The notes below the pieces were generated by a model. That model searched no databases. It was not told the origin of the DNA and saw only the letters and a list, made by a program, of their open reading frames with translations. From Thermoleophilia bacterium (GTDB lineage: Bacteria; Actinomycetota; Thermoleophilia; Gaiellales; JAICJC01), in the NCBI GenBank assembly GCA_025927685.1, contig JAICKX010000007.1:1-57313 (forward strand): a stretch of DNA of 57,313 nucleotides, written 5' to 3'. The position numbers were made by a program, and so were the translations under genes. Numbering within the stretch: the stretch's first letter is position 1; every line of letters starts with the position of its first letter. Of the stretch, positions 11,065-57,313 are shown piece after piece.

Positions 11065-11484
11065 ATGCCTGAATTCCACACGAAGAAGATCACCCTCCCG
11101 AGCGGCAAGACGGTCGAGCTGTTCTACCTCGCCGCGCAGGGCTCGGAGCAGGCCGCGGAGGCCGCTCCGGCAGACGATCCGAAGGCCCGCCTTCGGCAGA
11201 TCGAGATCTGCCCCGAGTGTGACTCCGACCGGGTGCATCCGGTCGACTGGCACGAGGTCGACGAGCACCACTGGCGCCTCGACGTGCGCTGCCCCGACTG
11301 CCGCTGGATGGGAAGCGACGTGTTCGCGCAGGACGAGGTCGAGCGCTACGACGACCTCCTGAACGCCGGCACCGACGCGCTGATCGAGGAGCTCGAGCGC
11401 ATCACGCGCGAGAACATGGCCGATCACCTGGAGCGCTTCCTCCGCGCGCTCGAGGACGACGGCATCATGCCGATCGATTTTTAA
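11065..11484 (+). CDS. Hypothetical protein with Zn-ribbon (CPEC..CPDC)
   Basis: ATG start, ICPECDSDRVHP...DVRCPDCRWMGSD; stop TAA is part of the palindromic repeat. Confidence 0.75.
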   Translation: MPEFHTKKITLPSGKTVELFYLAAQGSEQAAEAAPADDPKARLRQIEICPECDSDRVHPVDWHEVDEHHWRLDVRCPDCRWMGSDVFAQDEVERYDDLLNAGTDALIEELERITRENMADHLERFLRALEDDGIMPIDF

Positions 11485-11600
11485 CCACGGGGGAACCCAG
11501 GGTTCCCCCGTGGCCCCCTCCTTAAGGGCTGGCGTCGCGTTTGAGCACGACGGCGAAGAACGCGGTCTTCGCCGTCGCCACCAGCGTCGGGTGCAGTGCC
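11481..11600 (+). repeat. Modular palindromic repeat, copy 1
   Basis: TTAACCACGGGGGAACCCAGGGTTCCCCCGTGGCCCCCTCCTTAAGGGCTGGCGTCGCG followed by hairpin CGACGGCGAAGA/TCTTCGCCGTCG. Confidence 0.9.
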
Positions 11601-35871: not shown

Positions 35872-38283
35872 GTGGTTGCACACGCCCATGAGATGACGGG
35901 ACCTGTCCATCACGAGCACGGCGGCGGCGGGCCGCGACGCAGCGTGTGGCTGCGCGGAAGCTGGGTGCGCGCGCTCTGGGTCGCGGCGTTCATGGGGGTC
36001 GCGGCCGCACTGATCGTCATGGGCATCCGCGACCTTTCGGGCCGGACGGCCTACAGCGCGGGCGTCGTCCAGACCTTCATCATGCTGTTCGCCGGCATCG
36101 GCTTCACGATCGGCATCGGCTGCTGGGACTACTGGTGGGGCTACCTGATCGGGCGGCCGACCCCGGCCCACGAGGACCACTCCAACCACGGCGCCTACTC
36201 GTGGAAGGACTACTTCAAGGTCAACACCGACCACAAGGTGATCGGCGTCCAGTACCTCGTGACCACGTTCATCTTCTTCATGATCGGCGGGATGCTCGCC
36301 GAGGGCATGCGGGCGGAGCTCGCGACGCCGGGCCAGCAGTACTTCTCGCCGGGCACGTTCAACGGCCTCTTCTCGGTGCACGCCGCCCTCATGATCTTCC
36401 TGTTCGTGATCCCGGCGTTCGCGGGCCTCGGCAACTTCGTCATCCCCATCATGATCGGGGCGCAGGACATGGCGTTCCCACGCCTGAACGCGCTCAGCTT
36501 CTGGATGCTGCCGGTGGCCGGCATGTGCATGGTCTCGTCGTTCCTCGTCACGCCATTCGACGCCGGCTGGACGAACTACGTGCCGCTCGCGGTGCACGGC
36601 CCGGACGGGCAGACGATGTGGGTGATGGGCGTGCAGTTCGCCGGCGCGTCCTCCATCGCCACGGCGGTCAACTTCCTGGTCACGATCGTGACGATGCGGG
36701 CGCCGGGCATGACGTTCTGGCGGATGCCGCTGCTGGTGTGGGCGAACCTGGCCACGTCCACGCTGGTCGTCCTCGGAACGCCGTTCATCGCCGGCGCCCA
36801 GTTCCAGGTGCTGTTCGACCGGATCATGCACACGCACTTCTTCGATCCGACGGGCGGCGGCGACGTGATCGCCTATCAGCACATCTTCTGGTTCTACTCC
36901 CACCCGGCGGTGTACATCATGATGCTGCCCGGCTTCGGGATCATCTCCGAGGTCATCGCGATCCACTCGCGTAAGCCGATCTTCGGCTACAAGCTGATCG
37001 CGATCTCGACGGTCGCCATCGGCGTCCTCGGGTTCACGGTGTGGGCCCACCACATGTTCGTGTCCGGCATGGCGCCGTGGCTGCGGATCCCGATGATGTT
37101 CACGACGATGGCGATCGCCGTCCCGACCGGGATCAAGATGTTCTCGTGGCTCGCGACCATGTGGCGCGGCGTCATCCACCTGACGACGCCGATGCTCTTC
37201 GCCTGCGGCTTCCTGGCGACGTTCGTGGTCGGCGGGCTGTCAGGCATCTTCCTGGCCGTCATCCCGGTCGACATCGCGACATCCGACACGTACTTCGTGG
37301 TCGCGCACATCCACTACGTCCTCTTCGGCGGGTCCGTGTTCACGATCTACGCCGGCATCTACCACTGGTTCCCGAAGATGACGGGCAAGATGTACGACGA
37401 GGGCCTGGGCAAGCTCCACTTCTGGCTCACGTTCGTGGCGTTCAACGCCACGTTCATGCCGATGCACTGGCTCGGCCTCCAGGGCATGCAGCGCCGGATC
37501 GCCGACTACCCGTCGCAGTTCGGGACGCTCAACTTCTTCATCTCGATCATGGCGTTCATCCTCGGCGCGTCGACGCTGGTCTTCCTCTACAACATGGCTC
37601 ACTCGTGGTGGCGCGGAGAGACCGCGCCGGCCAACCCGTGGCGGGCGCTCACGCTCGAGTGGCAGGTCACCTCGCCTCCGCCGATCTTCAACTTCGACGA
37701 GCCGCCGCAGATCGTGGGCAGCCCGTACGCCTACGGCGTCCCCGGCGCGCGCCACGCCGTCGTCACCGTTCACGCGCCGCCGCAGCCCGAGGAGGTGCCG
37801 GTGCCCGTCGCTCTGGCCACCGCCACCCGTGAGGAGAGAGAGGCGATCATGAGCGCGCTCAAGCACATCCTGGTCGTGGCGAACCAGACCGTGTCCGCCG
37901 ACCGGCTGATCGCGGCCGTGCGCAATCGGGCGACCACGGATCCGGTGCGGGTGACGGTGATCTGCCCGCAGAACGACCCGACCGATGCGTGGGTCGTGAA
38001 CGAGGCGGACGTGCGGGCGGCGACGCAGGCCCGGCTCGACGGCGCGCTGACGGCGCTTCGGCGGGCGGGGATCCAGGCGACGGGCTACGTGGTCGAGCGC
38101 GACCCCTACACGGCGGTGATGGACGTGGTCGAGGAGGACCCGCCGTCGGAGATCGTCGTCTCGACGCTCCCGCAGACGCGGTCCGGGTGGCTGCGGCGTG
38201 ACCTGATCGAGCGGCTGCGCGACGGGACGAAGCTGCCGGTCGAGCACGTGGTGTCCGACGCTCCGGAGATGCCCCGCGCATGA
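35872..38283 (+). CDS. ctaD: Cytochrome c oxidase subunit I with N-terminal 2-TM extension and C-terminal UspA-like domain
   Basis: HHMFVSGM, WFYSHPAVYIMMLPGFG, VVAHIHYVLFGG; C-terminal ~145 aa MSALKHILVVANQTVSADRLI...LPVEHVV Usp-like. Confidence 0.93.
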   Translation: MVAHAHEMTGPVHHEHGGGGPRRSVWLRGSWVRALWVAAFMGVAAALIVMGIRDLSGRTAYSAGVVQTFIMLFAGIGFTIGIGCWDYWWGYLIGRPTPAHEDHSNHGAYSWKDYFKVNTDHKVIGVQYLVTTFIFFMIGGMLAEGMRAELATPGQQYFSPGTFNGLFSVHAALMIFLFVIPAFAGLGNFVIPIMIGAQDMAFPRLNALSFWMLPVAGMCMVSSFLVTPFDAGWTNYVPLAVHGPDGQTMWVMGVQFAGASSIATAVNFLVTIVTMRAPGMTFWRMPLLVWANLATSTLVVLGTPFIAGAQFQVLFDRIMHTHFFDPTGGGDVIAYQHIFWFYSHPAVYIMMLPGFGIISEVIAIHSRKPIFGYKLIAISTVAIGVLGFTVWAHHMFVSGMAPWLRIPMMFTTMAIAVPTGIKMFSWLATMWRGVIHLTTPMLFACGFLATFVVGGLSGIFLAVIPVDIATSDTYFVVAHIHYVLFGGSVFTIYAGIYHWFPKMTGKMYDEGLGKLHFWLTFVAFNATFMPMHWLGLQGMQRRIADYPSQFGTLNFFISIMAFILGASTLVFLYNMAHSWWRGETAPANPWRALTLEWQVTSPPPIFNFDEPPQIVGSPYAYGVPGARHAVVTVHAPPQPEEVPVPVALATATREEREAIMSALKHILVVANQTVSADRLIAAVRNRATTDPVRVTVICPQNDPTDAWVVNEADVRAATQARLDGALTALRRAGIQATGYVVERDPYTAVMDVVEEDPPSEIVVSTLPQTRSGWLRRDLIERLRDGTKLPVEHVVSDAPEMPRA

Positions 38284-38894
38284 GCGCCCACGTCGCCACC
38301 GCCGACGGCCACCACCACGCCGACGGTGCGCCGGTCTCCGCCTATCACGAGAGCCTGCTCCGGTCGCCCGTCTTCCTGGGCATGATCATGTTCCTCGGCT
38401 CGGAGATCATGCTCTTCGGGTCGTTCTTCACGATCTTCTTCTACATGCGGTTCACGCACAGCCCGTGGCCGCCGGAGGGCGTCGAGATCCCGAAGGAGGC
38501 CACCGGGATCAACACGGCCATCCTGATCTCGTCGTCGTTCACGATGCACTGGGCGCTCGTGTCGATCAAGCGCGATCGCCGGTTCGGGCTCGTCGTCGGG
38601 CTCTTCCTGACGCTTGCGATGGGGCTCACGTTCCTGAGCCTCCAGGTGCACGAGTACCTGAACCTGGGCTTCACCCCCTCGAACAACGGCTTCGCCTCCG
38701 GGTTCTTCTCGCTGACCGGACTGCACGGCATGCACGTCTTCGTCGGCGCGACCCTGCTCTCCATCGCCTTCCTCCGCGCCTGCCGGGGCCACTACTCCGG
38801 CGCCGAGCACATCGGCCTCGAGGTGACGGGCCTCTACTGGCACTTCGTCGACGTCGTGTGGATCCTGCTCTACACGGTCGTCTACCTGCTTTAA
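38280..38894 (+). CDS. ctaE: Cytochrome c oxidase subunit III
   Basis: GSEIMLFGSFFTIFFYMRF...TGLHGMHVFVGATLL...GLYWHFVDVVWILLYTVVYLL; ATGA overlap with ctaD. Confidence 0.95.
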   Translation: MSAHVATADGHHHADGAPVSAYHESLLRSPVFLGMIMFLGSEIMLFGSFFTIFFYMRFTHSPWPPEGVEIPKEATGINTAILISSSFTMHWALVSIKRDRRFGLVVGLFLTLAMGLTFLSLQVHEYLNLGFTPSNNGFASGFFSLTGLHGMHVFVGATLLSIAFLRACRGHYSGAEHIGLEVTGLYWHFVDVVWILLYTVVYLL

Positions 38895-39000
38895 CACGGG
38901 GGAACCCAGGGTTCCCCCGTGAGCCCCCTCCTTAAGGGGTGGCGTCGCGCTTGGGGCGCGACGGCGAAGAGCGCGGTCTTCGCCGTCGCCACGACGGCTG
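38891..39000 (+). repeat. Modular palindromic repeat, copy 2
   Basis: TTAACACGGGGGAACCCAGGGTTCCCCCGTGAGCCCCCTCCTTAAGGGGTGGCGTCGCG then GACGGCGAAGAGCGCGGTCTTCGCCGTC hairpin. Confidence 0.92.
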
Positions 39001-43699: not shown

Positions 43700-43770
43700 C
43701 GGCGAAGTCTAGAAACCCGCTGCAAACCGCGGCTTCGTTGTTATCCACGAGGCTGGAGACCGACCGGGAC

Positions 43771-43904
43771 CCGGGGACAGTCCCTGAACATGTGCCGCGA
43801 CGACGCTGCGACGCGTTCGTGACACCACCGGCCGCTGCGCGGCCCCGGCGCGTCACGCCGCTCCCACGGATGTGTGACACGAATTGTTCAGGGACTGTCC
43901 CCGG
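43771..43904. repeat. Paired inverted REP-like element (BIME-like)
   Basis: 20-bp perfect inverted arms CCGGGGACAGTCCCTGAACA (43771-43790) and TGTTCAGGGACTGTCCCCGG (43885-43904). Confidence 0.85.
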
Positions 43905-44532
43905 CCTCCGGTGCGTCGTCGCGGTGGAGCGCCGCGCGGCTGCGGGCGACGACCAGGGCAGCCAACGCGGCGTGCGCGTCGACGCTGTCGTCGGTCACCG
44001 CCACCGCGACCAGCCCCTCTCCGTGGCGGACGACCGTCGCTTCGCCTGCGACGATCGACTCGCGGTCGTCCGGGTGGGTGAGGCGGAACTCGATCAGGTC
44101 GCCCGTGACCGCATCGGTGCCCGCCGCCTCGATGAGGAGGCCGCCGGAGGCGATGTTGACGGAGACGCCCTGCACCTCCTCGCCCGGCTCGTCCCCGGAG
44201 AGCCGCCGGACCGCGACCCGGGTCATGCAGTTGATCCGCGTCGAGCGCGAACGTGTCGCCGCCTGATCGGAGACGACGAACCTGAAGTCCCCCACCGGTT
44301 CGACGGCATGGAGCGTGCCGCGAAAGCCGACCAGCGAGTCGCCGTGGCGGAACGTCAGAAACGCGTTCGCCACGTCCCGGGTCAGGCGCGCGGTCTCCGC
44401 CTTGCGCTCGACCTCGAGCGCCACCGTCATGCCCTCGACCGCCAGGATCCGCGCGGTGAACGAGGCCGGCACGAGGTACTGCCCGTGCGGCAGCGTCACC
44501 ACAACGGTGTCGTGGTCGCGCAGGCGGTTCAC
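43888..44532 (-). CDS. PilZ domain protein
   Basis: TRSRSTRINCMTRVAV and VSVNIASGGLLIEA PilZ-like motifs; C-terminus EAGDSP* lies in the REP. Confidence 0.82.
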   Translation of the reverse strand: MNRLRDHDTVVVTLPHGQYLVPASFTARILAVEGMTVALEVERKAETARLTRDVANAFLTFRHGDSLVGFRGTLHAVEPVGDFRFVVSDQAATRSRSTRINCMTRVAVRRLSGDEPGEEVQGVSVNIASGGLLIEAAGTDAVTGDLIEFRLTHPDDRESIVAGEATVVRHGEGLVAVAVTDDSVDAHAALAALVVARSRAALHRDDAPEAGDSP

Positions 44533-56898: not shown

Positions 56899-57094
56899 GC
56901 ACGACGAATTCCATCTCCCGGAGCCGTCGGCGCTCCCGATCGTCACCTCGATCGGCATCGCGCTCATCCTGTTCGGCTTCGTGCCCGACTCGCGGCTGTG
57001 GCGGCTGGCGATGGTCTCGATCGGGACGATGATCACCATCGGAGCGGGCTGGATCTGGCTGCGGGACTCGATGGCCGAGTACCGCGACCTTTAA
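56891..57094 (+). CDS. Putative cytochrome c oxidase subunit IV-like 2-TM protein
   Basis: LPIVTSIGIALILFGFV...MVSIGTMITIGAGWIWLRDSMAEYRDL; downstream of coxA/ctaAB. Confidence 0.65.
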   Translation: MAEHDEFHLPEPSALPIVTSIGIALILFGFVPDSRLWRLAMVSIGTMITIGAGWIWLRDSMAEYRDL

Positions 57095-57120
57095 CGCCCC
57101 CCTCCTTGGGGGTGACGGAT
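57091..57120 (+). repeat. Palindrome-less derivative of the modular repeat (copy 4)
   Basis: TTAACGCCCCCCTCCTTGGGGGTGACG vs TTAAC[palindrome]AGCCCCCTCCTTAAGGGGTGGCG. Confidence 0.55.
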
Positions 57121-57198
57121 CGGCATGCCGCCCGGCGGCGCCAGGGCTGGGTAAGGAAGGCAAAACCACACCACCGTCACGAGGGCGTCACGCGCGAA

Positions 57199-57215
57199 GT
57201 TCAGGGACTGTCCCC
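57199..57215 (-). repeat. REP-like GGGGACAGTCCCTGAAC, third copy
   Basis: Identical 17-mer to both arms of the 43771-43904 element. Confidence 0.8.
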
Positions 57216-57225
57216 GTCGTTGCCA

Positions 57226-57313
57226 CACGTGCACCCGACGCTCGCTGCGCCCCAACGCGACGCCACCCCTTAAGGAGGGGGCTCACGGGGGAACCCTGGG
57301 TTCCCCCGTGTTA
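57226..57313 (-). repeat. Modular palindromic repeat, copy 3 (runs to window edge)
   Basis: Reverse complement TAACACGGGGGAACCCAGGGTTCCCCCGTGAGCCCCCTCCTTAAGGGGTGGCGTCGCG identical to copy 2 core; second hairpin missing. Confidence 0.9.

Follow-up and report, generated by a model that had tools for sequence, protein, structure and literature searches.

Repeat copies in the window and the 41-nt unit

The stretch of DNA analysed here (57,313 nt, called the window throughout) comes from a 3.3-Mb metagenome-assembled genome (MAG; 81.5% complete, 198 contigs) and carries a palindrome, CACGGGGGAACCC-A/T-GGGTTCCCCCGTG, that is exact at three sites: 11486-11512 and 38895-38921, both reading CACGGGGGAACCCAGGGTTCCCCCGTG, and 57284-57310, where the central base is T. 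The first site comes after the TAA stop (11482-11484, plus strand) of a 139-amino acid open reading frame (11065-11484), the last A of this stop being base 1 of the 41-nt unit described below. The second comes after the TAA stop (38892-38894, plus strand) of the gene for cytochrome c oxidase subunit III (COX3, 38280-38894), the AA of which are also bases 1-2 of the unit. In copy 1 the hairpin and the CCCCCTCCTT tail occupy 11484-11523 on the plus strand, the left edge being one base short of the 41-nt consensus, and in copy 2 the complete unit, AAC-AC-GGGGGAACCCAGGGTTCCCCC-GTG-AG-CCCCCTCCTT, occupies 38893-38933 on the same strand. Inverted-repeat search and folding placed a second hairpin, B, downstream of each of them (CGACGGCGAAGAACGCGGTCTTCGCCGTCGC at 11548-11578 and GCGACGGCGAAGAGCGCGGTCTTCGCCGTCG at 38958-38988, both on the plus strand). 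The third copy (57250-57313, minus strand; 41-nt unit at 57272-57312) is 97% complementary to copy 2, lies inverted and is cut by the end of the contig; the TAA that its last bases spell on the minus strand is all that is left of a possible convergent gene, no gene being visible beyond the palindrome where the contig ends.

A reading made from the sequence alone had proposed that the repeat follows three stop codons, those at 11484, 38894 and 57094. Three exact palindromes are present, but the third is the inverted one at 57284-57310, and a palindrome follows only the first two of the named stops. The gene end at 57094 reads TTTAAC-GCCCCCCTCCTTGGGGG, the module found downstream of the palindrome in the two forward copies, here present without it (stop and CCCCCTCCTT module, TAACGCCCCCCTCCTTGGGGG, 57092-57113, plus strand). 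Comparison of the region 57060-57313 with two loci of congeneric genomes (L108 and L111, in G001 and G002) revealed one orthologous copy between convergent genes, its TAA lying flush with the end of a gene for a protein with a glutamine synthetase-like C-terminus.

Alignment of 113 copies delimited a sharp unit of 41 nt, RRC-RY-GGGGGAACCCATGGTTCCCCC-RYG-RR-CCCCCTCCTT, the consensus being [A/G][A/G]C-RY-GGGGGAACCC-AT-GGTTCCCCC-RYG-RR-CCCCCTCCTT, and position -18 and all positions from +2 on were near random. From left to right, the unit consists of an RRC that is unpaired, a hairpin of 12 perfectly matched base pairs and a RRCCCCCTCCTT tail, likewise unpaired; the hairpin is very stable, the 41-nt consensus folding at -24.6 kcal/mol. 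At the two variable stem positions the commonest combinations were AC/GT (26 copies), GT/AC (24), GC/GC (18) and AT/AT (15), both positions being fully paired in 83 of the 113 copies; this covariation of the arms shows a constraint on pairing. Module B, the second palindrome, often lies within about 110 nt downstream of the unit, and five copies in one genome have about 110 nt of downstream sequence in common. The CCCCCTCCTT tail resembles an anti-Shine-Dalgarno sequence; its complement, AAGGAGG, is like a ribosome-binding site with RYG at the distance of a start codon, and a valid start codon for a mini-ORF at this place was found in only about half of the copies.

Genomes that carry the element have roughly 5-15 near-exact copies each. 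A scan of one genome per species for an exact 24-mer of the element found at least 117 stretches, nearly all of them from Actinomycetota MAGs and, where the title was more specific, from Thermoleophilia, Gaiellaceae or Gaiella, apart from hits in one MAG of Peregrinibacteria and on a single contig of an Acidobacteriota MAG. Searches by kinship found the palindrome in two of the four families of the order; among 399 Actinomycetota genomes the motif occurred in four, all belonging to this order, and was absent from the approximately 395 outside it. The element is restricted to one order of soil actinobacteria and there to two families, and viral contigs yielded no copy of it. The Peregrinibacteria MAG (G479, 0.8 Mb) holds four copies of the 24-mer (L171, L208, L210 and L350), some with one-base changes and with a downstream hairpin of their own, which reflect either horizontal transfer or contamination.

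Stop codons and position relative to gene ends

Gene calling by codon bias, trained on Pfam-confirmed genes, gave 54 genes in the window with a score above 30, of which 36 stop with TGA, 15 with TAG and three with TAA. The three TAA stops are exactly those of the sequence-only reading, and all have the repeat or its downstream module. Across about 0.5 Mb of the same genome TAA ends 5 of 12 repeat-bearing genes and 28 of 477 others (Fisher p=5.8e-4), so that the excess of TAA over the background is borne out beyond the window. This link is nevertheless an enrichment and not a rule, because diverged copies elsewhere in the host genome come after TGA or TAG as well as after TAA. The commonest offset of the unit in the window's genus is -2, meaning that the stop codon is made of a T and the element's RR and is followed by the element's C; as T plus RRC spells TAA, TGA or TAG, this junction explains the three kinds of stop alike, and TAA is over-represented at the element because it is rare in the background and AAC is a common left end. 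In the closest relatives, COX3 has no palindrome and stops with TAG (same genus) or TGA (same family). That the repeat donates the stop codon, as had been proposed, therefore holds in a modified form: the element can supply a gene's stop, as T plus RR rather than as TAA specifically.

Measured from the left edge of the 41-nt unit, 16 of 25 copies in the window's genus lay within -6 to +12 of a stop codon on the same strand, compared with 26 of 500 random non-coding sites, and for the non-duplicated copies of the other named genomes the figures were 28/69 and 76/2240. Contact with the stop was one-sided and occurred in a single orientation only. The location of the repeat at gene 3' ends is consequently far above chance. 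It is not restricted to them, however: related genomes have many copies within gene, tRNA or riboswitch sequence that recurs on the other side of the element. The enrichment of stop-flush copies agrees with the targeted insertion at gene 3' ends that had been suggested from the sequence, but would result equally well from selection or from repeated deletions that end at the stop.

Duplicated flanks, empty sites and the origin of the joints

At 43 of the 106 copies that could be tested, 16-125 nt of the sequence left of the element were repeated just to the right of it, against 3 of 210 random sites and 2 of 460 random non-coding sites. The left copy is broken off exactly at the element, with 45 duplicate hits ending 0-7 nt away from it and none 8-15 nt away, and the right copy starts 0-125 nt after CCCCCTCCTT, with one exception at 288 nt. 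It is the right copy that is complete, the left one being a truncated fragment. A search of one genome (G009) did not reveal where the filler that separates the element from the right copy had come from. The duplicated pieces include gene starts (SMC, metH and others), gene 3' ends in antisense (deoC, rimI, gyrB-like), parts of tRNA genes (Leu, Phe and others) and sequence resembling a TPP riboswitch. Apart from the cases in which Pfam was run, these gene names were assigned by reading short translations. The stop-flush copies of the window have no duplication, so that two different histories may be involved.

Genomes without the element provided empty sites. In these genomes metH and its leader form a single contiguous sequence, and in two genera the flanks of the element-bearing metH loci overlap by about 47-69 nt on the empty locus; at deoC, rimI and SMC the element lies at different points of the same locus across related genomes. 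In the second genus the left fragment at metH has the start (GTGAAGGAC) and the leader seen in relatives, and this resemblance suggests a native origin for the left piece and a new one for the right. The metH leader itself (GGAGAGCTTTGAARGGCAGCTTGGCGACC..AACGCCTAAAGAGCC) is conserved in many genomes of the order, upstream of metH at L313, L315, L317, L322 and others, and at L312 the element is inserted in it. One genome gave a sub-threshold match of this leader to the Rfam SAM_alpha riboswitch, and it is possibly a diverged SAM-II-type riboswitch.

Coding duplicates differ between the two copies by 51 synonymous and 13 non-synonymous changes (dS 0.24 and dN 0.020 per site), giving dN/dS of about 0.08, a value that also holds for 3'-end fragments that cannot be translated. 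The tRNA portions of the two copies are identical and the parts upstream of the tRNA have diverged. Because the differences are mostly synonymous, the simplest inference from these comparisons would be that both copies were functional alleles while they diverged and that they were joined recently, through an insertion that coincided with recombination with a relative or was spread by it.

These data bear on the possibility that insertion produces ordinary long target-site duplications, the two copies of which then drift. The order of the parts (left fragment, element, complete copy), the overlap of the flanks on empty sites and a 45-nt duplication that is 100% identical in G009 are all as expected from such a process. 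Drift, on the other hand, predicts non-synonymous changes in the truncated copy, contrary to the low dN/dS found even in the untranslatable 3'-end fragments, and the contrast between identical tRNA parts and diverged upstream regions is also at odds with it. The synonymous bias between the copies hence disfavours a simple decaying target-site duplication, which we regard as a possible but rather improbable origin.

Alternatively, the unit could be a functional element of the 3' untranslated region, a terminator or an RNA-protecting hairpin, selected after the stop and homogenised by recombination while not being actively mobile. Its strict polarity and contact with the stop, the great stability of the hairpin, the covarying arms and the presence of copies at one orthologous locus in the congeners G001 and G002 are consistent with such a role. 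However, neither a T-run nor a terminator-like site is present at the hairpin, conservation extends beyond the pairing to the exact 41-nt sequence, the copies with duplicated flanks lie inside truncated gene, tRNA or riboswitch fragments, and sister genomes have empty sites; this makes the explanation unlikely.

The truncated fragments could also be chimeras of assembly or strain mixture, as most loci are on MAG contigs, several of which end inside the element. Against this, the junction between fragment and element offers no shared sequence usable by an assembler, its position at the same locus differs between species, and the joint recurs in many independent assemblies, including contigs of 2.6 and 3.3 Mb; since joints were found on the chromosome-scale contigs of G009 (one contig) and G037, they are not a contig-end artefact, and we consider chimeras a very unlikely source.

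We think it probable that the repeats form a lineage-specific, non-autonomous, REP-like family of mobile hairpins. The observations behind this reading are the unit with its borders and covariation, its restriction to one lineage, its polarity, the flush joints, the duplications and the empty sites. According to this model, the left end of the element would be joined precisely to host DNA, and insertion in a gene, tRNA or leader would produce a truncated left fragment and an intact right copy, such that the gene survives. Joints inside essential sequence would last only with a complete copy on the right, and beside a complete left gene they would last only at or just after the stop, where a T preceding the element and its RR would complete the stop codon. 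A survivor filter alone is insufficient to account for so many stop-flush joints, and two possible reasons for the excess are recurrent deletion that runs from the left edge to the stop and a function for which the element must touch the stop. A nuclease or transposase that recognises the hairpin would presumably act in trans to mobilise it. Recombination with diverged relatives may be the route of its spread or repair and would account for the largely synonymous differences between the two copies. Several points count against a mobile hairpin: no transposase was linked to the unit, the RAYT genes examined in G000-G002 being flanked by other palindromes, the right end is undefined, nearly all of the genomes are metagenome assemblies and, to our knowledge, duplications of variable length (16-125 nt) are not the product of known bacterial transposases.

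The mode of movement of REP-like palindromes, which are widespread, is as far as we know poorly understood. The family described here leaves an unusually readable trace: next to a precise one-sided joint stands a displaced gene end, which can be dated and set against empty sites. With this trace the mechanism of insertion, the choice of target and the exchange of alleles between species become directly testable. For annotation, the results mean that stop codons in these genomes can belong to a repeat and that truncated fragments of tRNAs, riboswitches and gene 5' or 3' ends are insertion scars rather than genes or assembly errors.

Candidate enzymes and comparison with known systems

None of 12 Y1_Tnp loci in four genomes (G000-G002 and G009) has a copy of the 41-nt unit. 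At most of the loci in G000-G002 the RAYT (Y1 transposase) genes are flanked by other palindromes, leaving RAYT unsupported as the cognate of the unit. One of those palindromes, GGGGACAGTCCC(TGAAC), is repeated in the window (43758-43790, 43885-43917 and 57175-57216) and flanks RAYT genes in G000 and G001 (L154 and L155); it is likely a true REP with its transposase. Another, GGGGTCAGACCCC, lies in the window at about 1745-1765, after a stop at 1730, and flanks other RAYT genes in inverted orientation (L151, L156-L158). Two adjoining tyrosine recombinases (L352-L358 and L351) are conserved in the second element-bearing family and are probably the usual Xer pair. They were rejected as the machinery, being Xer-like and without an adjacent copy; in G009 the distance to one array is about 11 kb.

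The family differs from several known classes of element. An Rfam search gave no family above the gathering score for the unit, only sub-threshold matches. Intrinsic terminators have a GC hairpin followed by a T-run, which the unit lacks, and classical insertion sequences and MITEs make short target-site duplications of fixed length, whereas those found here are of 16-125 nt and variable. An integron attC-like recombination site is brought to mind by a hairpin directly after the stop and by TAAC at the junction, but with no RYYYAAC...GTTRRRY core pair, a stem free of bulges and no integron integrase above the family cut-off in 61 genomes, this origin is hardly conceivable. BIMEs are mosaics of REPs and linkers; the family resembles them in its modular composition of hairpin A, CCTCCTT tail, linker and hairpin B and in its occasional arrays, these being direct (head-to-tail), unlike the alternating pairs of REP and inverted REP in BIMEs.

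The closer likeness is to the GTAG- and CGTC-tagged palindromic repeats or REP elements (PMC3733652) and their RAYT (TnpA-REP) transposases (PMC2817692, PMC8266576). Like REPs, the unit is a short palindrome (20-50 nt), mostly extragenic and near gene 3' ends, with an unpaired tag at one end and covarying stems. In contrast to them, it has RRC at the left end and RRCCCCCTCCTT at the right in place of GTAG or CGTC (GGAG is seen only on the strand complementary to the tail), its copies per genome are few compared with the more than 100 of REPs, and no physical association with a rayt gene was found at the loci examined in the four genomes. Because tag sequence, copy number and the missing RAYT partner do not fit the definition, the family is classed as REP-like and not as REP. 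According to a published survey, GTAG REPs are often the source of the TAG stop of flanking ORFs and occur at most 20 bp from gene 3' ends (PMC3733652); stop donation as seen here is therefore of a known kind. What is new is the left-right duplication that ends precisely at the left edge of the element; the literature searched held no description of long gene-fragment duplications at REPs, and a limited search found no report of gene-end scars at bacterial palindromes.

Such scars have a parallel in elements of fungal mitochondria that replace gene ends, as in atp6 of Allomyces and in the atp6, atp9, cox2 and nad3 hybrids of Glomus, where the displaced native end lies beside a complete gene with a diverged end, the differences being mostly at the nucleotide level (PMC3630166). 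Those elements encode a homing endonuclease (PMC3630166), whereas the bacterial unit has 41-150 nt and no ORF. By analogy, and speculatively, the 41-nt hairpin might be the recognised end of a new bacterial mobile system, one that encodes no enzyme, makes a precise left joint and long variable duplications, swaps gene ends between related species and leaves the displaced native end behind, as a counterpart of the fungal mitochondrial gene-end replacers.
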